Source: a virus. From it: a stretch of DNA of 26,393 bases. A model generated the notes under the pieces. The model saw only the letters and a list, made by a program, of their open reading frames with translations, ran no database searches and was not told the DNA's origin. The stretch is taken from positions 1 through 26,393 of IMG/VR virus record IMGVR_UViG_3300008111_000208; one strand, written 5' to 3'. The position numbers were made by a program, and so were the translations under genes. Shown here piece by piece: positions 14,602 through 26,393 of the stretch (the stretch's first letter is position 1; every line of letters starts with the position of its first letter).

Positions 14602-14637
14602 TATGTTGTGCCACCGCAGACGCGGAGTCATCTGAAT

Positions 14638-14663
14638 GAGGGGGCTGGGAAACCAGCCTCCTC
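14638..14663 (+). terminator. Hairpin with GAAA loop before thioredoxin gene
   Basis: An 11-bp stem, one G-T wobble, closed by a GAAA tetraloop and followed by TCTTTATCC. It is 37 nt after the previous stop and 24 nt before the thioredoxin ATG. It could end the early operon or act as a stabilising 5' hairpin for the thioredoxin message. Confidence 0.5.
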
Positions 14664-14686
14664 TCTTTATCCCTATTGGAGGCACC

Positions 14687-14989
14687 ATGGTCAAGCATAC
14701 GTTCGCCCAAGTCGTTCTCGAAGAGACTAAGAAAGGCCCCACCATCGTGGATTTCTGGGCCGAGTGGTGCCAGCCGTGCAAGCAGATTAGTAAAGAGCTT
14801 GATCGCCTCGCCAAAATGAAGCCGGTCAATATTTTGCGCGTCAATGTCGATGCACGCCCCGACGCCGCAAAAGAGTACGAAGTCAAAACGCTCCCAACGC
14901 TTCTCTTCTTCTCCGGTTTTGGTGCTACCCCCGTGCAAGTCAATGGGTTTGTCAGTGCCGAAGAGATGATCCGTCGTTTCAGGCTCTAG
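14687..14989 (+). CDS. Thioredoxin
   Basis: A 100-aa thioredoxin-fold protein from the ATG at 14687 with TGGAGG 5 nt upstream. IVDFWAEWCQPC contains the redox pair Cys28/Cys31 (CQPC instead of the host CGPC), and Pro70 in KTLPTLL is the cis-proline. It would reduce disulfides, possibly supplying ribonucleotide reductase or, as with T7, serving a polymerase; no such partner is visible here. It is flanked by a hairpin before and a terminator after, so it may be its own unit. Confidence 0.85.
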   Translation: MVKHTFAQVVLEETKKGPTIVDFWAEWCQPCKQISKELDRLAKMKPVNILRVNVDARPDAAKEYEVKTLPTLLFFSGFGATPVQVNGFVSAEEMIRRFRL

Positions 14990-15948: not shown

Positions 15949-16298
15949 GCGCAAGAGGGGTTGAGCCCTCCGGAGCCACGCCCGGGGTCACGCCGGGGAG
16001 TGACAGAAGGAAGGAGAGAGGGAGAGAGCGAAAGAGAGAGGGATGGATGGAGTTGGTAAAATGTTGATTTGTTCGTAGCGCGCAGGCTGGGTAGGGGGGT
16101 GCGCGGGTTCTAGCCGGGGGTTGGGCAGCACATCGAAGGGGGGGCAGCGGGTCTGGTATTCCGTTGACCGCTATGGCCGATCACGGGCAGCCGTACCGGT
16201 AAGGGGTCACCCCCCAGGGCGGCGCGTCGATGTTGGGGCAACGGCCAAAGGGGGGCAACGGGGGGGCGGGGTGTAGAGCTATCAACGGACAACAAGAA
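15949..16298. other. Gene-free junction, purine- and G-rich
   Basis: No supported gene. It holds a 12-nt copy of the tRNA-Asn 3' end (CCTCCGGAGCCA at 15967-15978), a run of GA repeats (about 16009-16050), and G-tracts (for example 16093-16098, 16138-16145). It also has short pieces resembling the spacer modules of the cassette array (GTTGACCGCTATGG; CGTCGATGTT). It lies between converging transcripts and could hold an attachment, origin or packaging site, none of which can be shown from sequence. Confidence 0.4.
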
Positions 16299-16322
16299 AC
16301 CCCACCCCCGAAGGGGTGGGGT
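16299..16322 (-). terminator. Terminator of paralog 1 unit
   Basis: A 10-bp perfect stem (ACCCCACCCC / GGGGTGGGGT) with a CGAA loop; the minus strand continues TTTCTTGTTG. Confidence 0.75.
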
Positions 16323-16347
16323 CTCTTAGTCCCAGAGGGTCAGCGGG

Positions 16348-16779
16348 TCAGCCGAGCGGCTGCGGCTCCCCCGCAATCACCCACGACACCAAGCGGGTCA
16401 GGTTGACGGTGCGGTGCGAGTGGAAGGGGCGGCGGTTCTCACACGCCGAGCCTTCGCGTCCTGCGTTCGGAGCCATCACCACCAAGTCCACGCAAGGCTC
16501 ACCCTTCTTGGTGAGGTACACGCCTTCTGGGTGAACATCGCGGTTCACCTGACCTGCCACCTTGAAGCGGAACACATCACCCTTCTCGGTCTTGATGGAC
16601 TCACCGCAGACCTTCACGCGACCAAGCGCGCGGTGCTCGGCGAAGTTGGCGGCAGCCTTCTTCTCACGAGCCTCAAACTTCTTCTGGGTCGTTGGTGCTG
16701 ACCACGCCTCAACGACGACGATCATACCCCCCGACTTGGCGGCTGCGTTCAGCCCTGCCTTCTGGGTCATACCTGCCAT
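16348..16779 (-). CDS. Cassette protein, paralog 1 of a three-member family
   Basis: A 143-aa protein from the ATG at 16779 (GGGAG 7 nt before; the upstream extension crosses the promoter). It shares a clear pattern with the proteins ending at 20495 and 22642: AWSAPTT near the start, AEHRALGRVKVCGE, KVAGQVNRDVHPEGVYL, KKGEPCVDLVV, and the closing CENRRPFHSHRTVNLTRLVS. The strongly conserved His/Arg-rich end suggests a metal, nucleotide or nucleic-acid site. No known family recognised. It has its own promoter and terminator. Confidence 0.65.
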   Translation of the reverse strand: MAGMTQKAGLNAAAKSGGMIVVVEAWSAPTTQKKFEAREKKAAANFAEHRALGRVKVCGESIKTEKGDVFRFKVAGQVNRDVHPEGVYLTKKGEPCVDLVVMAPNAGREGSACENRRPFHSHRTVNLTRLVSWVIAGEPQPLG

Positions 16780-16837
16780 TTGGCTCTCCCTGTCGGAGCG
16801 GAACCGAGCGGCTCCGTCTGTGTTCCCCGACAACCAG

Positions 16838-16866
16838 ATTCTCGCAGGTCTGGGGTCAGAGCGCAA
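16838..16866 (-). promoter_or_regulatory. Promoter of paralog 1 unit
   Basis: TTGCGC (16861-16866), 17 nt, GAGAAT (16838-16843) on the minus strand. It fits the array pattern but has the weaker TTGCG -35. Confidence 0.5.
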
Positions 16867-16924
16867 GACCCCGACCCATCAGGCGCAACACGCGCAGTTG
16901 CCCGCGTGCCGGTCGCGCCCCTTT

Positions 16925-17125
16925 CTTGGGTGTAAGGGGTAAGGGGTACAGGGGTGAATGAACTGACTGAACGAACTGACTGAACTAACTGATGAGTGAA
17001 GGCCGCAACGCTCGGAGCTTTACGCTCATTGACCGCAAGCCGGGCACGCTTGGCGCGGCGCGTTGCCCGAACATCGACAGAAGGGGGAAAGGGGAGAGGG
17101 GAAGGGGAAAGGGGGGCGAGTAATG
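16925..17125. repeat. Inter-cassette spacer with two G-tract modules
   Basis: First module: GGGGTAAGGGGTACAGGGG (about 16936-16954), then repeated GAACTGACTGAAC elements (to about 17000). A middle part has GCTCATTGACCGC and ACATCGACAGA. Second module: five GGGG or longer tracts at 17087-17117, then GTAATGACGAC. No gene is supported in 16867-17139. Confidence 0.6.
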
Positions 17126-17139
17126 ACGACATAACAAAA

Positions 17140-17167
17140 ACCCCCCACCCCCGAAGGGGTGAGGGGT
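17140..17167 (-). terminator. Terminator of 17.2 kb unit
   Basis: A 12-bp stem with one mismatch and a CGAA loop; the minus strand continues TTTTGTTATG. Confidence 0.8.
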
Positions 17168-17192
17168 CGTTGCCCGACGACCGGGCGAGCGA

Positions 17193-17609
17193 CTAGGCGA
17201 GCGACTCAATCCAAGCGCAAGCGTCGCAGCCTTCGCAGGACTCGTTGCCCAAGCGGTACGCTCCCGCGTGGAACATCTGGTCGCAGGTGAAACCCTTATG
17301 AACGGCGCAGAGGTCGTGCTGCCCCCGCTTCGACATAGACGACGCGCCGAGCGCGGCAAGCACCACATCAAACCAACGATCAAGCCCGACCTTGTCGGCG
17401 TACGCCTCAGCGAAGCCGTAGCACGCCACCGCTTCCTGAACCGAGGCGTGTACGCCGTCGGCGGCAATGACCACCCGCTCAAAGAGGTAGGTGAGCCCTT
17501 CCTTGTTGGTCTCGGTGATGGTTGCCCCTGTGCCGGTCTGAGTCCACTTGATTGCGGTGATGTTGGCGGCGATGTCGTTCACCTCGCCCATCTTCCAATC
17601 CGTAGCCAT
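17193..17609 (-). CDS. Cassette protein with Cys-rich C-terminus, unknown
   Basis: A 138-aa protein with AAGGAG 8 nt before the ATG. The N-terminal third is beta-rich (ITAIKWTQTGTGATITET), then a helical part with DRWFDVVLAALG. The C-terminus has six Cys (HDLCAVHKGFTCDQMF; ESCEGCDACAW), possibly a zinc or iron-sulfur site. Single-gene unit with its own promoter and terminator. No family recognised. Confidence 0.6.
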   Translation of the reverse strand: MATDWKMGEVNDIAANITAIKWTQTGTGATITETNKEGLTYLFERVVIAADGVHASVQEAVACYGFAEAYADKVGLDRWFDVVLAALGASSMSKRGQHDLCAVHKGFTCDQMFHAGAYRLGNESCEGCDACAWIESLA

Positions 17610-17656
17610 TGGTGCGCTCCTTCCTGTGCTGCTCGGTCATCTGCCGAACTACCCAG

Positions 17657-17685
17657 AGTGTACCGGCACACAGGCAACGACGCAA
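17657..17685 (-). promoter_or_regulatory. Promoter of 17.2 kb unit
   Basis: TTGCGT (17680-17685), 17 nt, TACACT (17657-17662). The leader then carries TCGG...CCGA, a GCACAG element and the AAGGAG site. Confidence 0.6.
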
Positions 17686-17751
17686 GCACCCATCGCACCA
17701 GACGCAACGCTGCCCGTGATCGGCCATAGCGCACAGGTGCGGCAGTTCCGG

Positions 17752-18180
17752 TGGGGGATAGGGGTAAGGGGAGTAATGAGTAATGAATGAATAATGAATG
17801 ATGAGTGATGACCGCATTGTCGCAGCTGCGCGGGTGATGACCGTTTATCGACAGACGACGACTACGCGTGGTTGCCCAATGCCGGTGCTGGCCAGTCGGC
17901 GGGGTACGGGGTAATGGGGGAAAGGGGAAGGGGGAAGGGGAACCAATGATGAGTGAATGATGAATGACGAGTAGTGGTCGTCGCAGCTGCGCGCTCATTG
18001 ACCGTTCATCGACAGAGAGCCGCGAAGGTTGCCCAGTGCCGGAGCCGACCAGTTAGGGCAAGGGGTCAAGGGGTACAGGGGGGAAGGGGTGAGGGGTGAA
18101 TGATGATGGGGTGATGATGAATGATGACCGCTCATCGACAGAGAAGCCAGAGCGTTGACCACTACCGGAGCCGAGCGGTA
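17752..18180. repeat. Three-copy long spacer repeat, no gene
   Basis: Copies of a unit of about 125-160 bp: G-tracts (17752-17775; 17900-17940; 18060-18097), GAATGATGA-type repeats, then shared motifs. GCAGCTGCG occurs at 17822 and 17982, exactly 160 nt apart. ATCGACAGA occurs at 17848, 18009 and 18134, after TGACCG. GTTGCCCA and GCCGG follow in copies 1 and 2; copy 3 is shorter and more diverged. No supported gene in 17686-18200. This may be leftover spacer from lost cassettes. Confidence 0.65.
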
Positions 18181-18200
18181 GGGCCAACACAGGGCAACAA

Positions 18201-18230
18201 GAAGCCCCACCCCCGAAGGGGCAGGGCTTC
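18201..18230 (-). terminator. Terminator of 18.3 kb unit
   Basis: A stem of about 13 bp with two adjacent mismatches and a CGAA loop; the minus strand continues TTGTTGCCC. The T-run is weak. Confidence 0.6.
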
Positions 18231-18253
18231 ATTGACCGAGACTCGACCGACGA

Positions 18254-18742
18254 CTAGCGCGCAATCTCCTCATCGTAGGTCAGGCTCAGACCGAGAGCGT
18301 GCTCCAAGTCAAAGACCTTGGCGCGGGTGTAGGCATCAGCCAGCACCGCATTGCGATTGTTGAGCCAGAGCGCGACGATGGTTCGTCGTGCCGACTCAGC
18401 CAGCGGCTCGTAGTCCTCACCGAAGCCCGTCGAGTAGTGGGCAGCGTCGCGTGCCAGTTCGTCAATCTCGTTCTGCCCCATCACCAAGACGACATAGGAG
18501 CCGTCATCGTAGTTGCCCCACTCGGCGGACGATGACCGCACCTCGACCGAGACGAAGTCAAGGTCGCGGCTGGTGTGGTCGTTCCAGAACGCAGCGGGTA
18601 CGACGACGAGGTGCTGCCCGCCCCCGGACTCGGTGTTCGCCTGCGCGGCTTCACCGAACTCCTCAGCCGTCAGCGACTCATTGACCGCCACGATTGCTGC
18701 CCGTACCTCGACGAGCCGCTGCTGGTTCTTCTCCCTATCCAT
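18254..18742 (-). CDS. Cassette protein, unknown, acidic
   Basis: A 162-aa acidic protein with GGAAGGAG before the ATG. N-terminal helix (EKNQQRLVEVRAAIVAVNES), a beta-rich middle (QHLVVVPAAFWNDHTS; DGSYVVLVMGQNEID), and a helical C-terminus (RTIVALWLNNRNAVLADAY). No catalytic motif or family recognised. It has its own promoter and terminator, like its neighbours. Confidence 0.6.
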   Translation of the reverse strand: MDREKNQQRLVEVRAAIVAVNESLTAEEFGEAAQANTESGGGQHLVVVPAAFWNDHTSRDLDFVSVEVRSSSAEWGNYDDGSYVVLVMGQNEIDELARDAAHYSTGFGEDYEPLAESARRTIVALWLNNRNAVLADAYTRAKVFDLEHALGLSLTYDEEIAR

Positions 18743-18793
18743 AGGGCGCTCCTTCCGTCAGGGCGGGTCTGTGCCGACAACCCCAACACCGAG

Positions 18794-18822
18794 AGACTAC
18801 ATCGACAAGCGGTCAGCGTCAA
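18794..18822 (-). promoter_or_regulatory. Promoter of 18.3 kb unit
   Basis: TTGACG (18817-18822), 17 nt, TAGTCT (18794-18799). The leader includes GGCACAGA and the GGAAGGAG site. Confidence 0.65.
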
Positions 18823-18864
18823 GCCCGACGCACCAGACGTAACGCCCGACCTATCCCGTAGTCC

Positions 18865-19100
18865 CAGAAGTAGTGGGGTATAGGGGAAGGGGGTGTAGGG
18901 GTATAGGGGTAATGATGAATGAATGATGACTGAGTGAATGATGACCATGACCGGCCAGCGATTCTCGGAGCTGCGACAAAAACCACCCCGTAGGAACGAC
19001 GGAGAGACGCGAAAGCACGGCAGCCCATACCAGAGCACCCGACTAGTTGGGGGGTAGGGGGAAGGGGTAAGGGGTCATAGGGGAATGAATGATGAATGAT
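18865..19100. repeat. Inter-cassette spacer with two modules
   Basis: Module 1: GGGGTATAGGGGAAGGGGG and further tracts (18876-18911), GAATGATGA repeats to 18948, GGAGCTGCGACAA at 18978. Module 2: G-tracts 19049-19084, then AATGAATGATGAATGATGACC. No supported gene in 18823-19124. Confidence 0.6.
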
Positions 19101-19124
19101 GACCACGACCAGCTGATAAACAAA

Positions 19125-19152
19125 CCACCCCCACCCCGAAGGGTGAGGGTGG
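19125..19152 (-). terminator. Terminator of 19.2 kb unit
   Basis: A 12-bp stem with one mismatch, CGAA loop; the minus strand continues TTTGTTTATC. Confidence 0.75.
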
Positions 19153-19176
19153 CAGTTGCCCGATACCGGCCAGCGA

Positions 19177-19515
19177 CTAGAAGGCGGGAGAGTCCTCTAC
19201 GGCTGCGACGAAGGCGAACGGCTTCCCGTCTACCTCTACCCACGACCCAGCCACAGCGACCAAGCCCACACCAGCCAGCAGGTCAGCGACCCAGGCAGGA
19301 GCCGTCTCCCTGTCGTCGGACTCAGCGCCCCACTCGCCCACGCCCGCGTCAATCTCAACGACGGCGTAGACCGCCTGAATCATTCCGCGCACGATGGGCA
19401 TCGGCTCATCAAACGAGACGGCCTCGGTGCGGTCAAACGACCAGCCCTCACCCAACGCCTCACGCTGACCGCTACCGGCCGCGTCACGCGCTACTGCTAC
19501 CAAGAAACGCCACAT
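19177..19515 (-). CDS. Cassette protein, unknown, small
   Basis: A 112-aa protein from the ATG at 19515 (GAGGGGG 7 nt before); the longer frame runs through the leader hairpin. Sequence MWRFLVAVARDAAGSGQRE..., later MPIVRGMIQAVYAVVEIDAG and a beta-rich end VAVAGSWVEVDGKPFAFVAA. Acidic, no Cys site, no family recognised. Confidence 0.6.
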   Translation of the reverse strand: MWRFLVAVARDAAGSGQREALGEGWSFDRTEAVSFDEPMPIVRGMIQAVYAVVEIDAGVGEWGAESDDRETAPAWVADLLAGVGLVAVAGSWVEVDGKPFAFVAAVEDSPAF

Positions 19516-19537
19516 AGCGTTCCCCCTCTCTGTGCTA

Positions 19538-19595
19538 CTCAGCGGAGCATTGCCGCCGAGGTGATCAGCGTAGCCGGTAGTGGGCAACAACGCAA
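19538..19595 (-). promoter_or_regulatory. Promoter and leader hairpin of 19.2 kb unit
   Basis: TTGCGT (19590-19595), 17 nt, TACGCT (19567-19572). It is followed in the leader by an 8-bp hairpin (19538-19560, 7-nt loop) and GCACAGAGAGG before the ATG. Confidence 0.6.
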
Positions 19596-19644
19596 GGGGT
19601 AGACGCTGACCGTCGCATGCGAACGCCGACCGACGCCGACAGTC

Positions 19645-19705
19645 TGGGGGATAGGGGATAGGGGGGGAAGGGGTACGGGGTAGTAATGATGAGTGAATAA
19701 TGACC
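19645..19705. repeat. Inter-cassette spacer module
   Basis: G-tracts (GGGGGATAGGGGATAGGGGG and two more, 19646-19681) followed by TAGTAATGATGAGTGAATAATGA. No gene in 19596-19728. Confidence 0.6.
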
Positions 19706-19728
19706 GCGTACAGCTATCACCCCAAGAA

Positions 19729-19764
19729 GAAGCCCCCACCCCCCACAGAAGGGGTGAGGGCTTC
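19729..19764 (-). terminator. Terminator of 19.8 kb unit
   Basis: A 14-bp stem with one mismatch and loop CCACAGAA; the minus strand continues TTCTTGGGG. Confidence 0.65.
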
Positions 19765-19779
19765 GGTGGCCGGTAGCGG

Positions 19780-20076
19780 TCAGCGGCTAGTCGTCAAGGC
19801 TCTCCCCGAACTGATAGACCAGCCAGCCATCGCGTCGCACTTAGGGCAGACTCCCGAAGTCGTCGTCTCGGTGCAATCAACCCACGCCGAACGCTCATCG
19901 TCCAGCAGGAACTCGCGCGCGTCATCGGCGGTGTCGGCGTTGTACGCCCCCAAGGTCTCCGCCAACCCAATCAACGCGGTTGCGGCTTCCTGACCCGTAG
20001 CGTGCCACGAGCGGCGAGTCTCGCCCTCCCATACCACCTCAACCAGCCAGAGGCTCTTGGTTTCCGTTGCTGCCAT
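19780..20076 (-). CDS. Cassette protein with CxxC, unknown
   Basis: A 98-aa protein from the ATG at 20076, with GAGGAG 8 nt before. It opens with a beta strand pair (KSLWLVEVVWEGETRRSW), then a helix (EAATALIGLAETLGAY), an acidic stretch, and VCPKCDAMAGW, a single CxxC. The longer frame passes through the leader hairpin. No family recognised. Confidence 0.6.
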   Translation of the reverse strand: MAATETKSLWLVEVVWEGETRRSWHATGQEAATALIGLAETLGAYNADTADDAREFLLDDERSAWVDCTETTTSGVCPKCDAMAGWSISSGRALTTSR

Positions 20077-20099
20077 CTTTGGTTCTCCTCTCTGTGCCA

Positions 20100-20150
20100 C
20101 CGGAAGATTCCGGCTACGCCATCTTATAGGGCCGGTCGCGGTCAAGTCAA
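20100..20150 (-). promoter_or_regulatory. Promoter and leader hairpin of 19.8 kb unit
   Basis: TTGACT (20145-20150), 16 nt, TATAAG (20123-20128), the best promoter of the array. The leader has CCGGAA/TTCCGG (20100-20113) and GGCACAGAGAGGAG. A C-run (G on the minus strand) precedes the -35. Confidence 0.7.
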
Positions 20151-20194
20151 GCCCCCCTCCTAGACCGTCTAGTCCAGCGAGCCCAGCCAGCCAG

Positions 20195-20405
20195 CCCTAG
20201 TAGTAGTGGGGGTCTGGGGGTATGGGGTAGTGGGTGTGAATGATGAATGAATGAATGATGAATGAATGATGAGTGATGAGCGCGGAGCTGCGACGACTCC
20301 GGGGTCTAAGTCGAATGGAGAGCCGGCGCACCGGTACGCGCTGGGGGTGCGGGGGGCAGGGGGGAGTGGGGGATAGGGGTGTGGGGTGAATAATGAACGC
20401 CTATG
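20195..20405. repeat. Inter-cassette spacer with two modules
   Basis: Module 1: G-tracts (20208-20232), a long run of GAATGATGAATGA elements (20238-20280), GGAGCTGCGACGA at 20284. Module 2: G-tracts 20343-20386, then GAATAATGAACGC. Nothing else is supported in 20151-20439. Confidence 0.6.
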
Positions 20406-20439
20406 AAATGTTGCCCGCCTAAAGCTTTTTCCAAATGGA

Positions 20440-20471
20440 GAGGCCGCCACCCCCGAAGGAGCGACGGCCTC
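20440..20471 (-). terminator. Terminator of paralog 2 unit
   Basis: GAGGCCG/CGGCCTC outer stem, an interrupted inner stem, CGAA loop. The minus-strand tail CATTTGG is weak. Confidence 0.5.
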
Positions 20472-20494
20472 AGTACCGACCGGAGCGGAGCCGC

Positions 20495-20962
20495 CTAGCG
20501 GTGCTGTTCCTCGCCGGAGTCCAACCACGACACGAGCCGTGAGAGGTTGATAGTCCGGTGCGAGTGGAACGGCCTACGCTTCTCACACGCAGAACCCGGA
20601 ACGCCGGCGTACTCGCACGCCGTCGTATACCCATACTCGGTTGGCGCGGAGATGACGACATCAACGCAAGGCTCGCCGGCCTTGTTGAGATAGATGCCGC
20701 CCTCGTGAACATCGCGGTTGATGGAGCCGGCTACCTTGTAGACGAAGGAGATGCGCCCCTTCTCGTCTACCTTCTGCTCACCGGTCGTCTTGACGCGACC
20801 AATGGCGCGATGCTCGGCCTCACGAGCCGCTGCTGCGGCCTCACGACGAGCGAACTCCTTCGCGGTCGTTGGCGCGCTCCACGCCGTAAACACCGCGAAC
20901 CGGCCACCGAGCCGGTCGGCTGCGGCCATCGCCGCCGCGTGCGTCATTCCTACCTTGCCCAT
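20495..20962 (-). CDS. Cassette protein, paralog 2 of a three-member family
   Basis: A 155-aa protein, closest to paralogs 1 (16348) and 3 (22642). It shares AWSAPTT with paralog 1, AEHRAIGRVK with 3, VAGSINRDVHEGGIYL with 1, and the segment APTEYGYTTAC almost unchanged with 3. It ends CEKRRPFHSHRTINLSRLVS like the others. N-terminal half is a long Ala-rich helix (ARREAAAAAREAEHRA). GGAAGGGG precedes the ATG. No known family recognised; the His/Arg end is the most conserved part and probably functional. Confidence 0.7.
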   Translation of the reverse strand: MGKVGMTHAAAMAAADRLGGRFAVFTAWSAPTTAKEFARREAAAAAREAEHRAIGRVKTTGEQKVDEKGRISFVYKVAGSINRDVHEGGIYLNKAGEPCVDVVISAPTEYGYTTACEYAGVPGSACEKRRPFHSHRTINLSRLVSWLDSGEEQHR

Positions 20963-20982
20963 TTGCTACCCCTTCCTGTGCT

Positions 20983-21036
20983 GCCGGTTCATCAGACCGG
21001 CTGAGGCCAGTATACACACCCCACCGCAGAACGCAA
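20983..21036 (-). promoter_or_regulatory. Promoter and leader hairpin of paralog 2 unit
   Basis: TTGCGT (21031-21036), 16 nt, TATACT (21009-21014). The leader has GCCGGT/ACCGGC (20983-21001) then GCACAGGAAGG. Confidence 0.65.
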
Positions 21037-21079
21037 GCCCCCCCTAGCGGGTAGGCCACCGGAGCCGGCGTGCCGGTCT

Positions 21080-21150
21080 AAGAGTCTGGGGGTCTGGGGG
21101 TCTGGGGGTATAGGGGCGTAGTGATAAGGCGTAGTAATGACGCGCCTGAA
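21080..21150. repeat. Inter-cassette spacer module
   Basis: GTCTGGGGGTCTGGGGGTCT and a further tract (21084-21116), then GTAGTGATAAGGCGTAGTAATGA. The CTGAAATGTTGCCCG segment at about 21146-21160 also appears before the paralog 2 terminator (about 20402-20417). No gene in 21037-21180. Confidence 0.55.
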
Positions 21151-21180
21151 ATGTTGCCCGTGTGAAGCTCTACAAAGAGA

Positions 21181-21214
21181 GAGGCCACCCCCCGCACAGA
21201 TGGGGAGTGGCCTC
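21181..21214 (-). terminator. Terminator of 21.2 kb unit, GCACAGAT loop
   Basis: GAGGCCAC/GTGGCCTC outer 8 bp, one mismatch, then CCCC/GGGG, loop GCACAGAT. Minus-strand tail CTCTTTGT. Confidence 0.7.
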
Positions 21215-21233
21215 GGAGACGAACCGGAGAGGT

Positions 21234-21692
21234 CTAGCGGTAGTCGCTCGGCATCACCGGATTGTGGAGCGAGTCAATCCACACCGCGCCAATCATCGGC
21301 GTATCCATCAGGTCAGACTCAACAACCTCAAAGACCTCGGCACCGATAGCCGAAGTCTCGCCGCCGAAAGCGTCTACGAAGGCCGCGAACTCGACCGGAC
21401 TCTCGGCAAAGGTCGCCGCCTGAGCCGGAGTCATCGTCTTCCAATCGCTCCCCTCGTGGTACGCCCAGAAGGAGCCGCCGCGCTCGTCGTCAGCCCAACC
21501 AATCAGAACAGCCAGAGCCGTTCCGTAAGTTGGCACATAAGCGATGAGGTCGTCGCCGTCGCCGTAGCGCACATAAACGCGGAAGGCCGCGTCAGCCGGG
21601 AGCGTCTGGCGGCAAGCCGGGCAGGTTCCCTGCGCCTGATTGCCAAGGTACTTCTGAACCCACTTCTGAGCCGTACTCCTGATGTCGTTCAT
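21234..21692 (-). CDS. Cassette protein with CxxC, unknown
   Basis: A 152-aa protein from the ATG at 21692, with AAGGAAGGA before it; the much longer frame runs through promoter and spacer. N-terminal helix (STAQKWVQKYLGNQAQ), then GTCPACRQTL (one CxxC), a beta-rich part (AAFRVYVRYGDGDDLIAYV), and an acidic C-terminal half. The CPAC segment could bind zinc with residues not seen, or act as a redox pair. No family recognised. Confidence 0.6.
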   Translation of the reverse strand: MNDIRSTAQKWVQKYLGNQAQGTCPACRQTLPADAAFRVYVRYGDGDDLIAYVPTYGTALAVLIGWADDERGGSFWAYHEGSDWKTMTPAQAATFAESPVEFAAFVDAFGGETSAIGAEVFEVVESDLMDTPMIGAVWIDSLHNPVMPSDYR

Positions 21693-21720
21693 CTTGTCCT
21701 TCCTTCCTGTGCCTGTGCCG

Positions 21721-21769
21721 TTGGCAAGTGCCAACACCAGAAAGGTAGCAGGTCTACACCAGAAGTCAA
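21721..21769 (-). promoter_or_regulatory. Promoter and leader hairpin of 21.2 kb unit
   Basis: TTGACT (21764-21769), 16 nt, TACCTT (21742-21747). The leader hairpin TTGGCA/TGCCAA (21721-21734) is followed by GCACAGGCACAGGAAGGAA, in which the GCACAG element occurs twice. Confidence 0.65.
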
Positions 21770-21827
21770 GCCCCCCCCTAGCGAGCCGGTATCCGGCACG
21801 GCCGCAGGTATCCGGTAGATGGTGGGG

Positions 21828-21915
21828 GTCTGGGGGGTCGGGGGTATGGAGTAGGAATAATGACTGACTAATGACTGACTGATAACTGATCGCGGAGCTG
21901 CGACAAGTGCCGGAA
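21828..21915. repeat. Inter-cassette spacer module
   Basis: G-tracts (21822-21845), then TGACTGACTAATGACTGACTG, GATCGCGGAGCTGCGACAAG at about 21888. The 317-bp stretch 21693-22009 otherwise contains only promoter, leader and terminator elements. Confidence 0.55.
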
Positions 21916-21954
21916 AAACCAAGCTGGGCTCTTAACAATCCCTTAACAAATGAA

Positions 21955-21988
21955 GAGGCCGCCGGGGGCACAGATCCCCGACGGCCTC
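21955..21988 (-). terminator. Terminator of 22.0 kb unit, GCACAGAT loop
   Basis: GAGGCCG/CGGCCTC, one mismatch, CGGGG/CCCCG, loop GCACAGAT. Minus-strand tail TTCATTTGTTAAGG. Confidence 0.8.
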
Positions 21989-22009
21989 GTAGACAACCGG
22001 AGCGAGCGA

Positions 22010-22378
22010 CTACATCGGGAAGCCGCCGCGCTCCAACGCCGAGATGATCCGCGCTACTTCGTTAGCCGTGAAGCCGCGCAGGTTCTCGTTGTGAACGAGT
22101 GAGCAGGTGCCGACCAGACCGCCGCCGTTGAGATAGGCCGGTGCGCTCTTAGTGGCAACAGCGAGAACATCGCACGCGGTCAGGTTGAGTTCAGGGTCGG
22201 ACTTCAGCAGCCCTTCCTCATCGGCAATCACCGAAACCTCAACGCCGCCAATCTTGCCGTGGCCGACAATCTCCACCATCTCGCACTCGGTCGCAGCGTA
22301 GAGGCCATCAAGCCCTTCACCGCGCGCCGTAATGGTGATCTTGCCCGGAGCGATCCTGAGAGCGTAAATGTTCTCCAT
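22010..22378 (-). CDS. Cassette protein, unknown, beta-rich
   Basis: A 122-aa protein from the ATG at 22378 with AAGGAAGGA before it. Beta-rich first half (IYALRIAPGKITITARGEGL; ATECEMVEIVGHGKIGGVEV), a short loop with VATKSAPAYLNGGG, and a closing helix (TANEVARIISALERGG). The pattern suggests a small mixed alpha/beta fold. No family recognised. Single-gene unit. Confidence 0.6.
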   Translation of the reverse strand: MENIYALRIAPGKITITARGEGLDGLYAATECEMVEIVGHGKIGGVEVSVIADEEGLLKSDPELNLTACDVLAVATKSAPAYLNGGGLVGTCSLVHNENLRGFTANEVARIISALERGGFPM

Positions 22379-22402
22379 CTTGTCCTTCCTTCCTGTGTCT
22401 AT

Positions 22403-22450
22403 CGGGAAGCCCCGACTCATAGAGAATACACGACTCACCGCAGAAGTCAA
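22403..22450 (-). promoter_or_regulatory. Promoter and leader hairpin of 22.0 kb unit
   Basis: TTGACT (22445-22450), 16 nt, TATTCT (22423-22428). Leader hairpin CGGG/CCCG (22403-22414) then ACACAGGAAGGAAGGA. Confidence 0.65.
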
Positions 22451-22485
22451 GCACCCAGCCTAGACCACCCAGCGCAGCTCAAAGT

Positions 22486-22560
22486 GTTGGGGGGGTGTGG
22501 GGGAGTGGGGTACGGGGTCGCAGGTACGAGTACGGCCTGAATAATGAACTGATAAGAACC
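22486..22560. repeat. Inter-cassette spacer module
   Basis: G-tracts (22489-22519), then CTGAATAATGAACTGATAAG. AACCAAGCTGGGTTTGCCGG is close to the sequence before the 22.0 kb terminator (about 21917-21930). No gene in 22451-22586. Confidence 0.5.
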
Positions 22561-22586
22561 AAGCTGGGTTTGCCGGAGCAAAGAGA

Positions 22587-22624
22587 GAGGCCGCCACTCC
22601 CGCACAGATGGGAGCGACGGCCTC
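22587..22624 (-). terminator. Terminator of paralog 3 unit, GCACAGAT loop
   Basis: GAGGCCG/CGGCCTC, interrupted middle, CTCCC/GGGAG, loop GCACAGAT. Minus-strand tail TCTCTTTGC. Confidence 0.7.
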
Positions 22625-22641
22625 GGAGATAGTGCGAGCTG

Positions 22642-23097
22642 CTAGCCCTCGACTTGTTCCTCACCCGCGATCACCCACGACACGAGGCGCGTGAGATTCA
22701 CGGTGCGGTGCGCGTGAAACGGCTTCCGCTTCTCGCAAGCAGTACCAACCTTCCCCGCGTTAGGACAGGCCGTAGTGTAGCCGTACTCCGTGGGTGCTCC
22801 GATGATGAGCGAGAGCGTAGGCTCGCCCTTCGCGTTGTGAACGATTCCGGTGGCGTCTTGCGTGCGGTCAAGCATACCGGAAGCCGTGAACAGGAACGAC
22901 ACGCGCCCCTTCTCATCGTAGCGAGCTTCGCCGGACACCTTCACGCGACCAATGGCGCGGTGCTCGGCCTGTCGCCCTGCTGCGCCTTCCTCACGACGCT
23001 CCAAAGTGCGCGGCGTTGTCCAATCACTCCACGCCGTCAGGGTGGTGATCTTACCGGCGGCCTTCGCCGCTGCTGCTAGTGCTTGCTGTGTGTTCAT
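22642..23097 (-). CDS. Cassette protein, paralog 3 of a three-member family
   Basis: A 151-aa protein starting MNTQQALAAAAKAAG with GGAAGGAAGGA before the ATG. Shared with the paralogs: AEHRAIGRVKVSGE, DEKGRVSFLF, NAKGEPTLSLII, APTEYGYTTAC and the end CEKRKPFHAHRTVNLTRLVS, followed by WVIAGE as in paralog 1. It differs in the middle (DRTQDATGIV in place of NRDVHEGGIY), so that segment is not essential to the fold. Function unknown. Confidence 0.7.
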   Translation of the reverse strand: MNTQQALAAAAKAAGKITTLTAWSDWTTPRTLERREEGAAGRQAEHRAIGRVKVSGEARYDEKGRVSFLFTASGMLDRTQDATGIVHNAKGEPTLSLIIGAPTEYGYTTACPNAGKVGTACEKRKPFHAHRTVNLTRLVSWVIAGEEQVEG

Positions 23098-23119
23098 AGG
23101 TTCCTTCCTTCCTACTACG

Positions 23120-23170
23120 CCGGAAAGCTCCGGTGATCAGATACTACAACCAACCACCGCAGCTCGTCAA
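23120..23170 (-). promoter_or_regulatory. Promoter and leader hairpin of paralog 3 unit
   Basis: TTGACG (23165-23170), 18 nt, TAGTAT (23141-23146). Leader hairpin CCGGA/TCCGG (23120-23133) then AGTAGGAAGGAAGGAA. A long C-run (23173-23181) borders the -35. Confidence 0.6.
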
Positions 23171-23218
23171 GCACCCCCCCCCTACCCTATCGCCGGCCTA
23201 TCCCAGCGCAGCTCGAAT

Positions 23219-23270
23219 CGTTGGGGTCTGGGGTGCGGGGTAGAGAGTGCGCGTGAATAATGAATAATAA
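23219..23270. repeat. Inter-cassette spacer module, short form
   Basis: TTGGGGTCTGGGGTGCGGGG (23221-23240), then GCGTGAATAATGAATAATAA leading into the next terminator. This is the shortest spacer seen. Confidence 0.5.
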
Positions 23271-23272
23271 AA

Positions 23273-23299
23273 ACCCCCAGAGTGATGAGCTCTGGGGGT
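23273..23299 (-). terminator. Terminator of 23.3-24.1 kb operon
   Basis: A 10-bp perfect stem (ACCCCCAGAG / CTCTGGGGGT), 7-nt loop; the minus strand continues TTTTATTATTC. The strongest terminator of the array. Confidence 0.85.
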
Positions 23300-23325
23300 G
23301 TGATACCGGGGGAAGGTTTCCCGGC

Positions 23326-23595
23326 TTAGATAAAGGGCTCCTCGCCGCTCTCCATCAGGATAAAGCGTGCGACCATCTTGGCCGTGGTTTCGGTGTCGTC
23401 ATACTTGCCGAGCACCGGATACCCTGCCGTACAACCGGCGGAGTAGTCGTAGCCATCATCAGCACGCTTCCACAGCGTACCGCCGAAGTTCACGCCGTCG
23501 GTGCTCATCAAGGCCACCCACGCGTCGTCCGCGAGGTCAATGCGCAAGTATCCGGCCTCGTTCATCTCGTAGGCCTCAGTTCCTTCTAGTGCCAT
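23326..23595 (-). CDS. Small acidic cassette protein, unknown
   Basis: An 89-aa protein from the ATG at 23595, with AGGAG 7 nt before. Sequence MALEGTEAYEMNEAGYLRID, later DAWVALMSTDGVNFGGTLWK and a closing helix (TAKMVARFILMES). It lies 47 nt after the previous stop without a terminator between, so it is probably the last gene of the operon that begins at 24069. No family recognised. Confidence 0.6.
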   Translation of the reverse strand: MALEGTEAYEMNEAGYLRIDLADDAWVALMSTDGVNFGGTLWKRADDGYDYSAGCTAGYPVLGKYDDTETTAKMVARFILMESGEEPFI

Positions 23596-23642
23596 CTCAT
23601 CACTCCTATCTTTGACCGGAAGCCCACACAGCCCCCGCAACA

Positions 23643-23837
23643 TTAGTCTAACACCAAGAACGCAAACACCGCAAGCACCACCAGAGAAGCTACACGCCAA
23701 GTAATCTCCTCACGGCGGCGGCGACGAACCCAATCCTCGGTGTCGCGCTGATACTGCGACTTCGTGATAACCGGGTGATAGATTGGCTTGCTGAAATCTT
23801 GTACGCACGAAGGGTAATCCCGATACGACTTACTCAT
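23643..23837 (-). CDS. Tail-anchored single-pass membrane protein, small
   Basis: A 64-aa protein. Residues 1-47 are polar and end in a basic cluster (WVRRRRREEITWR). Residues about 48-63 (VASLVVLAVFAFLVL) form one membrane helix at the very C-terminus, so the N-terminal part should face the cytoplasm. The start overlaps the previous gene and GAGGAG precedes the ATG. It may act at the host membrane (for example superinfection exclusion or a lysis helper), but nothing in the sequence decides this. Confidence 0.6.
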   Translation of the reverse strand: MSKSYRDYPSCVQDFSKPIYHPVITKSQYQRDTEDWVRRRRREEITWRVASLVVLAVFAFLVLD

Positions 23838-24069
23838 ACTCGCTCTCCTCTAATGGGTATCCGGCGTTCTCCAACACCTCAATCATACACGCGCGCACGG
23901 CTTCCTTGTAATCACCGAAGGTCGCGCGCTCTCCGGGGTAGAACCCCCGGAAGTCCACATCGGGCAGGTCATCAGGGGTCAGGCCGCACTTGGCCTCAAC
24001 CTTGCGCGCCACCGCGACATAGAACTTGCTGAACGGAACTTCCAGAACCTCGTTCGTATCCCTACTCAT
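23830..24069 (-). CDS. Small acidic protein, first gene of operon
   Basis: A 79-aa protein starting MSRDTNEVLEVPFSKFYVAV with AAGGAG 6 nt before the ATG. Acidic, helical C-terminal half (YKEAVRACMIEVLENAGYPL). Two neighbours begin in a similar way (the genes starting at 24487 and 24848, both xSRN), with similar leader sequence AAGGAGTA(C/T)C, which hints at duplication of the translation start region. No family recognised. Confidence 0.6.
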   Translation of the reverse strand: MSRDTNEVLEVPFSKFYVAVARKVEAKCGLTPDDLPDVDFRGFYPGERATFGDYKEAVRACMIEVLENAGYPLEESEYE

Positions 24070-24091
24070 CAGGTACTCCTTCCTACTACGC

Positions 24092-24141
24092 CGGCAAGTG
24101 CCGACTACTGAACACTACACCCACTACTGCGCTGTCGTCAA
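24092..24141 (-). promoter_or_regulatory. Promoter and leader hairpin inside upstream gene's 3' end
   Basis: TTGACG (24136-24141), 18 nt, TAGTGT (24112-24117). The -35 lies within the last codons of the gene ending at 24124. Leader hairpin CGGCA/TGCCG (24092-24103), then AGTAGGAAGGAG. Confidence 0.6.
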
Positions 24142-24348
24142 GGCCTCAGTTGGGTCAAAGGATTCAGGGCGTTCGGCTGCCACCCAAGCGTCAAGCTCCA
24201 CGCGCCACTTCCACGGACGCTCAATAAGGTCAAGCAACAAATCGCAGCGGTCATCAGACTCCGCATACTCCGCATACCCGCCGCGAACCATTGCGCGAGC
24301 AAACGCCAACACATCGAGTTCGTTGTAAGGCCAATCAAATCGTCCCAT
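24124..24348 (-). CDS. Small Trp-rich acidic protein, unknown
   Basis: A 74-aa protein from the ATG at 24348, which has AGGAAGGA about 8 nt before. A TTG 24 nt upstream also lies in frame but has no ribosome site. Sequence MGRFDWPYNELDVLAFARAM, then acidic CDLLLDLIERPWKWRVELDAW. It overlaps the upstream gene by 14 nt. No family recognised. Confidence 0.55.
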   Translation of the reverse strand: MGRFDWPYNELDVLAFARAMVRGGYAEYAESDDRCDLLLDLIERPWKWRVELDAWVAAERPESFDPTEALTTAQ

Positions 24349-24487
24349 TATCTCGTCCTTCCTGTACGCCAATCTCCTCTAACGAGGCCAGATACGCGTC
24401 GGCAAAGCACTCCGCGCAGATACGCGATTCGTACTGCCGGTCGTCCTCTACTTCACTCCCGCACCAAGTACAAGCGTTCCTACTCAC
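24335..24487 (-). CDS. Small zinc-ribbon-like protein
   Basis: A 50-aa protein from GTG at 24487, with AAGGAG 6 nt before. The longer frame to 24520 has no ribosome site. Two CxxC pairs, CTWC and CAEC, about 20 residues apart, form a typical zinc ribbon. The tail is acidic. It overlaps both neighbours. Such tiny zinc-ribbon proteins often contact DNA or host enzymes; no specific partner can be named. Confidence 0.6.
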   Translation of the reverse strand: MSRNACTWCGSEVEDDRQYESRICAECFADAYLASLEEIGVQEGRDNGTI

Positions 24488-24848
24488 CTGATACTCCTTC
24501 CTTATGAGCCGCATACTCATCGGCTACCCTGAGAGCATACTGCTTGGCTTCCTCAAAGTCAAGCAATACCTCGCCGTCCTCGTTCTCCCCCCAGATGACC
24601 TCAAACCACGGATTATTGTGCCACTCAATCGTGCCGGCCTCCTCAGCGGCGGCGAGCTTCTCGTCGGTATCAAGCCCCTTCTCATCGAGGTCGTTTGTAT
24701 ACCGGAGAACACTCGTGCTGCCGTCTGGCTCGGTAAAGTGAATCCTCATCTCGCCAGCCCGGTACACAACGACTTCCTTATCGTCGGTGAACCATACCGG
24801 GTCGGAATCGTGGTACTGCGTAAAGAAGGCCGCGTCGTTCCTGCTCAT
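24480..24848 (-). CDS. Acidic cassette protein, unknown
   Basis: A 122-aa strongly acidic protein from the ATG at 24848 (overlapping the upstream TAA). Beta-rich first half (DPVWFTDDKEVVVYRAGEM; then STSVLRY), Asp/Glu-rich middle, and EWHNNPWFEVIWGENEDGEV before a closing helix (KQYALRVADEYAAHK). The negative charge could mimic DNA, as some phage inhibitors do, but this is only a suggestion. No family recognised. Confidence 0.6.
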   Translation of the reverse strand: MSRNDAAFFTQYHDSDPVWFTDDKEVVVYRAGEMRIHFTEPDGSTSVLRYTNDLDEKGLDTDEKLAAAEEAGTIEWHNNPWFEVIWGENEDGEVLLDFEEAKQYALRVADEYAAHKEGVSGE

Positions 24849-25054
24849 TAGTTCCACCCAACTTCCTGCCAAGCGACAAAGCACTCGTCGCAAAGGTCTA
24901 CCGATTCCTCATAGGCGTTCTCATAGCCGTTCCACCCATAGCGGAAAGGCCGCGCCTTCACCCCTTCGTGCGACCACTCAGGCCAACGGCGTGCGTTCTC
25001 GCACTCTGCCGGCTGCTCCTGCGGTTCACCAACCGGAATCTCAAAAAAGTCCAT
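24848..25054 (-). CDS. Small acidic protein with CxxC, first gene of operon
   Basis: A 68-aa protein with GGAAGGAG 7 nt before the ATG. Cys18 and the CDEC pair near residue 56, plus His29, may bind zinc. Several aromatic residues (RRWPEWSHEG; RPFRYGWNGYENAY). It opens a four-gene overlapping unit (25054 to 24124). No family recognised. Confidence 0.6.
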   Translation of the reverse strand: MDFFEIPVGEPQEQPAECENARRWPEWSHEGVKARPFRYGWNGYENAYEESVDLCDECFVAWQEVGWN

Positions 25055-25097
25055 CTGTCCTCTCCTTCCTCTACACCGGCAATCACCGGCACAACGA

Positions 25098-25126
25098 ATC
25101 CTAAACGATACAATCTACGCCGTCAA
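25098..25126 (-). promoter_or_regulatory. Promoter of 24.1-25.1 kb operon
   Basis: TTGACG (25121-25126), 17 nt, TAGGAT (25098-25103), placed directly after the RNA-B terminator. Confidence 0.6.
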
Positions 25127-25133
25127 GTATGAA

Positions 25134-25177
25134 GGGGAGAGTCGCCTAGGGAAACCACTCCCAAGTTGCGACTCCCC
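25134..25177 (-). terminator. 3' hairpin of RNA B
   Basis: GGGGAGAGTCGC pairs with GCGACTCCCC (10 bp with a 2-nt bulge); an inner GGGA/TCCC is possible. The minus-strand tail TTCATACTT is moderately T-rich. Confidence 0.55.
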
Positions 25178-25343
25178 CCAAACCCTTTCGCGGCATTGAC
25201 GCTTATCCCTAATCACAGAGGCAACATCGGCTCTCGCCTAGTTGCTGCCACCGACACCCCTGTTGGTTAGACCCAAGCTCGGTGGCCTTATCGTCTCGGG
25301 CAGTTCGTCTATCTGCCAACTATCCGGCCTCTACCCGGAACGG
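25134..25343 (-). ncRNA. Structured non-coding RNA candidate B
   Basis: About 210 nt with no coding frame that looks real. It has its own promoter (25350-25378) and a long terminal hairpin. On the minus strand it folds as a series: UCCGG/CCGGA, GGCAG/CUGCC, then an 8-bp stem GCCACCGA/UCGGUGGC (25247-25286) that encloses UUGG/CCAA. Next is GCAAC/GUUGC (25221-25245) holding GGC-GAGA-GCC with a GNRA loop, and last the 3' hairpin. No known RNA family recognised. Ends are estimates. Confidence 0.55.
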
Positions 25344-25349
25344 AATACA

Positions 25350-25378
25350 AGACTACAACATAAGAATAAGGGAGTCAA
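25350..25378 (-). promoter_or_regulatory. Promoter of RNA B, embedded in RNA A terminator
   Basis: TTGACT (25373-25378), 17 nt, TAGTCT (25350-25355). The -35 is the 3' arm of the RNA A terminator, so one RNA's end overlaps the next one's start. Confidence 0.6.
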
Positions 25379-25397
25379 GCCCGAAGGCCTGACTCCC
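25370..25397 (-). terminator. UUCG-capped terminator of RNA A
   Basis: GGGAGTCA/TGACTCCC plus GGCC/GGCT around a TTCG loop on the minus strand, 12 bp, followed by TTATTCTTATG. The tail is T-rich only on the minus strand, which sets the direction. Confidence 0.8.
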
Positions 25398-25648
25398 AGA
25401 CCGGTAGCTCGCCGGCCTCTTGTCCTGAAACCTTCGGGAGCCGTCGCCCCCAAAAGTTTCAGTAGACTATTCGCTTCCGCCGGTATTGGCCTAAACCTTC
25501 CGGCTTCCACTTACAATCTTGCTCTCCCGCATTTACAGCAGCGATTAGAGCCCATCACTCGCCTGAACCACTTCGCATTTATCGGCTGCGTGCTTTGTTC
25601 CTAACACTCTCACCTATTCGGTAGCTTCTCCTAGGATTGCTCCCGACA
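25370..25648 (-). ncRNA. Structured non-coding RNA candidate A
   Basis: About 280 nt with no convincing protein. The 3' end has three adjacent hairpins on the minus strand. A stem of about 17 bp lies at 25425-25462 (CUGAAAC/GUUUCAG at its base, GACG loop), then AGGCCGG/CCGGUCU (25398-25418), then a UUCG-capped terminator. Upstream are GCCGG/CCGGC and GCUCU/AGAGC pairings. It does not show the marks of tmRNA (no tRNA-like 3' end), RNase P or 6S. Its promoter is weak at -10, so the 5' end near 25648 is uncertain. Confidence 0.55.
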
Positions 25649-25653
25649 TAAGG

Positions 25654-25682
25654 AGTTTCTCACAGGCGTATCAGCAAGTCAA
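25654..25682 (-). promoter_or_regulatory. Possible promoter of RNA A
   Basis: TTGACT (25677-25682), 17 nt, GAAACT (25654-25659). The -35 matches the array; the -10 is weak. Confidence 0.4.
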
Positions 25683-25719
25683 GTAAGTTGCGGATAAGGT
25701 TTGTGTAAGGAATCTTAAC

Positions 25720-25790
25720 TATTTTGGGGTATGGGGTATGGGGTACGGGGGCGCATGAATAGGCCGGCCTGATGATGTCGAGCTACAAAA
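25720..25790. repeat. Inter-cassette spacer module before radC terminator
   Basis: GGGGTATGGGGTATGGGGTA and GGGG (25725-25751), GCATGAATAGG, TGATGATGTCGAGCTACAAA. Same module order as the other spacers. Confidence 0.55.
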
Positions 25791-25794
25791 AGAA

Positions 25795-25823
25795 TCCCCC
25801 GGTGGGAGGACTCCACCGGGGGG
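25795..25823 (-). terminator. Terminator of radC-like gene
   Basis: A 10-bp GC-rich perfect stem (CCCCCGGTGG / CCACCGGGGG), 7-nt loop; the minus strand continues GATTCTTTTTGTAG. Confidence 0.85.
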
Positions 25824-25865
25824 ATAGGACTCGCGGGAGGGAGGACACCGCCCCGCAAGTCGTAG

Positions 25866-26381
25866 TTAGTTTGCTCCGCCCATAACGCGCAGCCGATTGT
25901 CCTCCTCAAAGATTCCTGGCTTCCCTGACCTAATGCTCGTGAACGCGCCGTTGCTGCCCACAACCAAGTGGTCAATGAACGACAGGTCGAGCAGCGACGC
26001 GGCCTTCGCCACCTCGCTCGTCAGGCTGATGTCCTCATCAGAAGCCTGAGAATCGCCCGATGGGTGATTGTGAACGAGCGCGAACCCTACCGCTCCCATG
26101 AGCAACGCCGAGCGAATCAGTTCACCAATGCGAACCGAAGTGCCTGTCGCCGTACCCTGATAGACGCGATGGATACCGAGCAGGTTGTTGCGCCCACCGA
26201 ACGCGATGACGAACAACGCCTCACTCATCTCAGCGTCAGCGAACTCGCGGAACAAGGCCGCAAGGTCGCGTGGGCTTGTGATGACCGCCGACTTGTTGGT
26301 GCGTGCGACACGCTTGACCGAATACTCGTAAGCGTTCCACATACCGGTTTCGGCAATGCTATTAGCCTTCCTCTTTGCCAT
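25866..26381 (-). CDS. RadC-like JAB-domain protein
   Basis: A 171-aa protein. Residues about 45-165 form the RadC/JAB (MPN+) domain: EALFVIAFGGRNNLLG, then HNHPSGDSQASDEDISLT, the JAMM-type HxHPSG...D metal motif, and LSFIDHLVVG. It lacks the N-terminal helix-hairpin-helix of full RadC (about 220 aa), having instead a short basic N-terminus (MAKRKANSIAE). Related proteins are common on mobile elements; the biochemical role is unsettled, with a zinc-dependent peptidase-type fold. AGGAGG lies 5 nt before the ATG. Its promoter is outside the window. Confidence 0.85.
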   Translation of the reverse strand: MAKRKANSIAETGMWNAYEYSVKRVARTNKSAVITSPRDLAALFREFADAEMSEALFVIAFGGRNNLLGIHRVYQGTATGTSVRIGELIRSALLMGAVGFALVHNHPSGDSQASDEDISLTSEVAKAASLLDLSFIDHLVVGSNGAFTSIRSGKPGIFEEDNRLRVMGGAN

Positions 26382-26393
26382 AAGTCCTCCTAG

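Follow-up and report, generated by a model that had tools for sequence, protein, structure and literature searches.

The 26,393-base virus record IMGVR_UViG_3300008111_000208 (termed the window below, meaning the whole stretch of DNA analysed, given as one strand) carries nine consecutive minus-strand genes, each of which is laid out as a separate unit. We consider it likely that an uncultured freshwater tailed phage here carries nine accessory-gene cassettes in tandem, each transcribed autonomously, and that the cassettes are reshuffled through homology between their spacers. A preliminary description of this DNA had placed such an array in about 10 kb (16299-26393). Our analysis retains nine autonomous-looking units, numbered 1 to 9 along the direction of transcription, but confines them to about 7 kb (23325-16250, minus strand), where the end of the array faces plus-strand replication genes. 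The minus-strand genes at 25054-23326 are separated by gaps of 0-54 nt, with no terminators in between, so that they look like an ordinary operon behind one promoter, outside the array. The relatives used for comparison are approximately 20 metagenomic phage contigs, identified here by L-numbers (contig or locus labels). Scanning IMG/VR with unit 1 returned 23 loci; unit 3 then added a single contig (L036), and unit 2 further distant contigs.

The proposal that small genes have their own promoter and their own terminator agrees with the predicted signals of all nine units in 23325-16250. A site of the form TTG[AC][CG]N-16/18-NANNNT lies 43-58 nt 5ʹ of the ATG in each unit, and its -10 box is TANNNT in eight units and GAGAAT in unit 9, which bears out the sigma70-like form described previously (TTGACN or TTGCGN, 16-18 nt, TANNNT-like). 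Each gene is preceded by a Shine-Dalgarno site, and a strong GC-rich hairpin terminator is located 3ʹ of each stop codon. Over 11 loci, 80 of 87 spacers contain a promoter-like site at a distance of 33-60 nt upstream of the start, compared with 0.7 expected from dinucleotide shuffles. An additional feature, absent from the preliminary description, is a leader stem-loop that mostly begins 4-7 nt past the -10 box. Stems of at least five perfect pairs occur in 75 of 81 predicted mRNA leaders (11.3 expected from shuffles), and the stem of unit 5 is kept by compensatory changes (GCCGGA/TCCGGT, GCCAGC/GCTGGT and GCCGAG/CTCGGT).

Spacers in the window proceed from a terminator through TCATT-type repeats and a C-tract, present in one to three copies, to the next promoter, and several hold two or three such modules in tandem. 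C-tract and TCATT sequence together make up roughly one-quarter to one-third of the spacer length. The spacers do share modules far beyond chance: with at most one mismatch, TCATCATTCATT occurs 10 times, always on the minus strand within the array (0.05 expected), and ACCCCNNACCCC occurs 39 times, nearly always on that strand within the array (2.2 expected). A further motif that had been counted among the common parts, CAGCTCCG/GCAGCTGCG, has five sites in only four of the nine spacers. Similarly, where at least ten spacers of one scheme had been claimed, nine end in a unit promoter, and further C-tracts follow the last unit and the RadC-like gene, for a total of 11 sites. Pattern scans of IMG/VR for the spacer modules matched this phage group only.

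The association of the module with the neighbouring signals was counted in 116 spacers from 14 loci. Terminator and C-tract occur together in 101 of these, a C-tract without a detected terminator in nine, and neither in six; every detected terminator is accompanied by a C-tract. A promoter is still present in five of the six spacers that lack both, and C-tracts are also located 3ʹ of terminal genes that have no promoter following them. The C-tract therefore tracks the terminator rather than the promoter, and the module belongs to the terminator side. A role as an upstream promoter element is disfavoured, given that promoter-only spacers lack the module, whereas it does follow the last terminator.

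Comparison with relatives reveals that the units change places. In the following orders, read after the operon, D and E denote unit 1 paralogues, x another paralogue, 27, 30, 31, 33 and 35 other genes, and a prime a diverged allele. The window shares the order 1 2 3 4 5 6 7 8 9 with L003 and L006, and L009 reads 1 2 3 4 up to its contig end, but L010 and L011 carry 2 31 1 3 4, followed by 8 in L011. L007 reads 2 1 3 7ʹ D 6 5 27 9 30, L013 reads 2 1 3 7 D 6 5 8 9 30, and L015 reads 2 1 3 7ʹ D 6. The order is 2 3 4 5 in L032 (to the contig end), 2 3 4 5 6 x 7ʹ 8 in L023, and 2 3 E 27 5 6 7 9 30 in L020 and L036, with 7ʹ in the latter. L016 carries 2 3 4 6 5 7 33 27 9, and L017 is the same minus 33 (2 3 4 6 5 7 27 9), whereas units 3 and 4 are exchanged in L040 (2 4 3 5 35 1 7 27) and L021 (2 4 3). 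Most units are found in several lineages at moved positions, and the relatives also show absent units and single units replaced by diverged alleles. As a descriptive measure, with pairwise counts that share history, 54% of shared adjacencies are kept in the array versus 91% in the upstream genes, and discordant gene pairs amount to 11.4% versus 1.7%.

Exchange by units is apparent at the level of alleles as well. L009 and L023 are 99-100% identical over the last operon genes that they share and over units 3 and 4, whereas identity falls to 77% in unit 2, and L023 lacks unit 1. In three contigs (L010, L032 and L023), the spacer that links the operon to unit 2 is a hybrid of two L009 spacers, one contributing its left part and the other its right part, with the switch point inside ACCCCGTACCCC or ACCCCNNACCCCAG. 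In L023, the spacer between units 2 and 3 switches within AGTCATTATTCA, and in L011 the joint between units 4 and 8, which removes units 5-7, lies at the end of a C-tract. Unit 1 sits at different places in L009 and L010; the moved stretch begins with the TCATT/C-tract preceding its promoter and continues through the C-tract past its terminator. Thus, joints resolved to the base level fall in the C-tract or the TCATT module, with shared homology of about 12-14 nt. Across lineages, units with 83-94% identity mostly align only between the very start of the -35 hexamer (offset 0 in most pairs) and a point no more than approximately 30 nt away from the terminator end. From these alignments, the exchangeable cassette appears best defined as promoter, leader, gene and terminator, with the C-tract/TCATT modules acting as the joints. 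Swapping of cassettes through shared spacers, and breakpoints of gene gain and loss within those spacers, are hence both supported by the relatives. The earlier proposal is amended regarding the limits of the cassette, its closest precedent and a probable insulating role of the C-tract.

Unit similarity holds between lineages, but the spacer modules differ. Spacers are alignable within lineage II (L007 and L013) yet differ across lineages, and therefore the modules must have turned over throughout the array between lineages. In the distant relatives L075, L076 and L072, the layout of one promoter per gene is kept but the spacer repeats are different: (GTTATG)n and (CCCGTA)n in L075 and L076, and GGTTAGGGGTTA-type hairpins in L072. 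Lineage II (L007, L008/L035 and L013/L045) has one to three copies per spacer of a strict element, TTTTTTC-N2-G-N3-CTATTA-N~15-CCCCC(C)ATACCCCC, also written TTTTTTC..CTATTA..CCCCCATACCCCC. On the opposite strand this element reads G5TATG5, then TAATAG located 7 nt before GAAAAAA; as judged from these boxes, it could be an unusual antisense promoter. Within this lineage, CCCCCATACCCC is present in nine of nine spacers of both the L007 and the L013 genome, with 16-17 copies per contig on one strand, and is limited to the array region in contigs of 82.5 kb and 50 kb. In addition, spacers share more 7-mers within a genome (0.152) than with the orthologous spacers of other lineages (0.119).

Such uniformity within a genome, with a single orientation and up to three copies per spacer, is what might be expected if the modules were binding sites for a phage- or host-encoded protein (an activator, repressor or architectural factor) that coevolves with the lineage. 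We regard this explanation as unlikely, given that the modules are missing from promoter-only spacers and persist past the last terminator, and are hence not tied to promoters; no candidate factor was found. The low complexity and lineage variability of the modules could instead indicate neutral simple sequence that grew by slippage, in which case shuffling would be illegitimate recombination filtered for intact genes, and selection would keep intact units anyway. This alternative seems to us more doubtful still. The order of parts, the strand and the terminator association are retained in five lineages, rearrangement is much rarer in the upstream operon of these phages, and hybrid spacers switch inside the modules.

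The base composition of the spacers bears on a further explanation, in which the C-tract/TCATT module is a Rho utilisation (RUT) site that provides a back-up terminator insulating the units, and recombination is a by-product. RUT sites are characterized by a 78-nt stretch with more C than G, spaced cytosines and unstructured RNA (PMC6407284). Sense-strand windows of 78 nt, one per spacer, fit this composition in each lineage tested, with mean C of 0.41-0.49 and mean G of 0.08-0.15, whereas C minus G is at most 0.27 in random non-array stretches. The module also goes with terminators, that of the last unit included, and is missing along with the terminator even when a promoter is present. However, the module of L007 and L013 is a specific motif that exceeds what composition requires, and the distant relative L075 carries repeats with G-rich parts. 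Moreover, the prediction uses composition only. We therefore hold this explanation to be possible but somewhat short of an even chance. The C-tracts could also act as roadblocks by forming G-quadruplexes on the template strand, and a pattern of four runs of at least three cytosines is indeed present in seven of nine window spacers. The same pattern occurs in none of nine spacers in L007 and none of nine in L013, so it is rejected as a conserved property, and we judge the roadblock explanation to be very improbable.

In the reading that we favour, shuffling of autonomous cassettes through spacer homology, each cassette comprises a predicted host sigma70-type promoter, a short leader with a 5ʹ stem-loop, a Shine-Dalgarno site and a single small gene followed by a predicted intrinsic terminator. 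Position and order would hardly matter because every unit has its own start and stop signals. The repeated spacers, running from terminator through TCATT repeats and C-tract to promoter, supply short homology at every joint, at which recombination between phage genomes or concatemers would move, delete or replace whole units, and the relatives do show units moved, missing and replaced. The same process probably makes the spacer modules uniform within a lineage. The RusA-like resolvase, PD-(D/E)XK nuclease and SSB encoded in the window could serve such recombination. Because the C-tract follows terminators that have no promoter behind them and is lost together with the terminator, the C-rich, G-poor module probably insulates neighbouring units too, perhaps as a Rho-dependent back-up terminator. 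A stronger version of this proposal, in which the terminator-linked module is a dedicated, lineage-specific and array-homogenised element that is both insulator and recombination joint, would amount to integron-like logic without a site-specific integrase, and we put it forward only tentatively, as an unlikely case.

Several points weigh against the favoured reading. Few joints are resolved to the base level, and the joint between operon and unit 2 in L010, L032 and L023 is probably a single event. Intergenic joints are expected anyway, joints inside genes being selected against. Some cross-lineage unit pairs extend further or begin later and are not sharp at the -35 hexamer or terminator. Certain units are fused without terminator or spacer, namely unit 2 to unit 1 in L007, L013 and L015, and the operon to unit 2 in L016 and L017. 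The promoters and terminators are predicted from sequence, as is one transcript per unit, and the suggested part of Rho derives from composition. No annealase was identified by name among the phage genes. The contigs, moreover, are metagenomic assemblies. Assembly error is nevertheless made less likely by the recurrence of most gene orders in at least two contigs of separate sample origin, and by the homologies of 12-14 nt being shorter than the usual assembly overlaps.

The components of the array are arranged as follows, all on the minus strand. The intrinsic terminator of the upstream operon (23271-23301), after the gene at 23326-23595, and a C-tract module (23223-23240) precede unit 1, whose promoter TTGACG-18-TAGTAT (23141-23170) and leader stem-loop CCGGA-GCTT-TCCGG (23120-23133) are followed by a gene for 151 amino acids (22642-23097) and a terminator (22587-22624). 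Another C-tract module (22489-22517) leads to the unit 2 promoter TTGACT-16-TATTCT (22423-22450), the stem-loop GTCGGG-GCTT-CCCGAT (22401-22416), a gene for 122 amino acids (22010-22378) and a terminator (21953-21990). The spacer before unit 3 (21824-21901) holds the GCAGCTCCG motif (21901-21893), TCAGT/TCATT repeats and a C-tract (21844-21824). Unit 3 then has the promoter TTGACT-16-TACCTT (21742-21769), the stem-loop TGTTGGC-ACTT-GCCAACG (21719-21736), a gene for 152 amino acids (21234-21692) and a terminator (21181-21214). Behind a C-tract at 21088-21116, unit 4 consists of the promoter TTGCGT-16-TATACT (21009-21036), a gene for 155 amino acids (20495-20962) and a terminator (20440-20471).

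Two modules occupy the spacer before unit 5 (20208-20386): the first has its C-tract at 20386-20343, and the second has GCAGCTCCG at 20291-20283, TCATT repeats at 20272-20250 and a C-tract at 20227-20208. They are followed by the unit 5 promoter TTGACT-18-TAAGAT (20121-20150), the stem-loop GCCGGA-ATCT-TCCGGT with compensatory changes in relatives (20099-20114), a gene for 98 amino acids (19780-20076) and a terminator (19729-19764). The C-tract before unit 6 (19646-19680) has TCATT-type repeats directly upstream; this unit includes the promoter TTGCGT-17-TACGCT (19567-19595), a gene for 112 amino acids (19177-19515) and a terminator (19124-19153). The spacer before unit 7 (18875-19102) again has two modules, the first with TCATT repeats at 19102-19088 and a C-tract at 19083-19049, and the second with a terminator-like hairpin (19004-18986), GCAGCTCCG (18974-18966), TCATT repeats (18944-18918) and a C-tract (18909-18875). 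Downstream are the unit 7 promoter TTGACG-17-TAGTCT (18794-18822), a gene for 162 amino acids (18254-18742) and a terminator (18199-18232). Three tandem modules precede unit 8 (17753-18127), with C-tracts at 18096-18062, 17940-17901 and 17771-17753 and TCATT repeats before each; its promoter is TTGCGT-17-TACACT (17657-17685), its gene encodes 138 amino acids (17193-17609) and its terminator lies at 17133-17174. The spacer before unit 9 (16936-17116) has two modules with C-tracts at 17116-17083 and 16954-16936. Unit 9 carries the weakest promoter, TTGCGC-17-GAGAAT (16838-16866), a gene for 143 amino acids (16348-16779) and the terminator at the array end (16291-16330), beyond which lies a C-tract (16250-16271) with no unit promoter behind it.

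Units 1, 4 and 9 belong to a paralogue family with two to three copies per array, at least five clades (A-E), and C and H residues that are conserved close to the C-terminus. Searches of PHROG and Pfam with the unit products gave no match, save a weak similarity of unit 2 to DUF3846/phrog_25534. An AlphaFold model of unit 1 (pLDDT 77) had no PDB match, and relatives of this unit were found only in uncultured phages. The unit 3 protein had no cellular or prophage homologue in 84,980 genomes. The capsid protein of the phage matches SU10_MCP, and its portal (PF04860) is 22-25% identical to those of cultured phages among the best matches listed; the capsid, the unit 3 protein and the array DNA had no match in INPHARED. 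The replication region also encodes a C-5 cytosine DNA methylase (9010-10146) and a thioredoxin (14636-14989), both on the plus strand.

A large structured RNA (25655-25127, minus strand) with its own TTGACT promoter is located 5ʹ of the operon, between it and the RadC-like gene. Its two halves have fold z-scores of -5.5 and -3.3. Among 10 distinct sequences, 13 pairs are changed on both sides and 98% of cells are paired, with a covariation score reached by none of 500 shuffles. The RNA is conserved in about 15 relatives, with no convincing match to a family in Rfam 15. An internal terminator-like hairpin is absent in L013, L020, L036 and L077, and therefore the RNA is continuous there (about 440 nt). 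Shorter relatives of about 250 nt (L084:2380-2720, L086:1-330, L095 on the minus strand near 9319, L094 and L098) keep the TAGGTGAG and GCAGCCRAAAAAUGCG blocks and the final GCGACGGC-loop hairpin, again with no convincing Rfam match; L084, L086 and L095 are unrelated-looking phage contigs. An RNA pattern gave ten matches in cellular genomes. Four of these (L100-L103) were inspected and look like chance; two of the genome matches were compared with the phage loci and did not match them.

Phages usually keep their gene order, and how accessory genes come and go is for the most part deduced from mosaic genomes. In this array, the exchange unit is legible from the sequence, extending in most compared pairs from the -35 hexamer to the terminator. 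The location of joints in a recognisable repeated module, combined with varied orders in close relatives, makes shuffling through spacer homology testable in natural populations. The array also provides a list of candidate host-takeover genes that these phages retain while relocating them. Among known systems, the morons of lambdoid and other temperate phages are described as accessory genes inserted one at a time between conserved genes, each bringing its own promoter and terminator. Each unit resembles a moron in being one accessory gene with its own predicted promoter and terminator, but the nine units stand in tandem with shared spacers and a permuted order, and are not isolated insertions.

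The preliminary description had likened the layout to the start-associated repeats of mycobacteriophages. In cluster K these repeats (SAS and ESAS) are short sequences with inverted repeats found ahead of many of the start codons in the non-structural genome half (PMC3203893). Short repeats before many genes are common to both, but each gene of the array lies between a sigma70-type promoter and a terminator, with the C-tract upstream of the promoter. Neither the 13-bp cluster K SAS GGGATAGGAGCCC, located at the start codon, nor the 13-bp cluster A stoperator GATGAGTGTCAAG has a match in the window with two or fewer mismatches, so this likeness is abandoned for a closer one. Host-takeover modules of the SPO1 type (Stewart et al. 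1998, as cited in PMC12282133) similarly bring together many small early genes of unassigned function and many regulatory sites in one plastic region. Compared with that description, the array has one cassette per gene and repeated spacers.

The nearest precedent appears to be the promoter early stem-loop (PeSL) cassettes of T4-type phages, reportedly the work of Arbiol et al. in 2010 and Comeau et al. in 2014. We propose that the array works like these cassettes, while being a member of neither the PeSLs nor the morons. As outlined in two citing papers (PMC4503421, PMC5348500), PeSLs share with the array a composite of terminator stem-loop and sigma70-type promoter between small accessory genes (nine of nine window spacers), repeats across a plastic region, and gene shuffling among close relatives with joints in the cassettes. 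By comparison, the phage carrying the array is not T4-type, as indicated by its SU10_MCP capsid match and PF04860 portal. It also adds a 5ʹ leader stem-loop in every unit and an extra terminator-linked C-tract/TCATT module that is lineage-specific and holds the joints. To our knowledge, such a module has not been described for PeSLs. The array thus carries the PeSL idea beyond T4-type phages, into a freshwater group unrelated to them.

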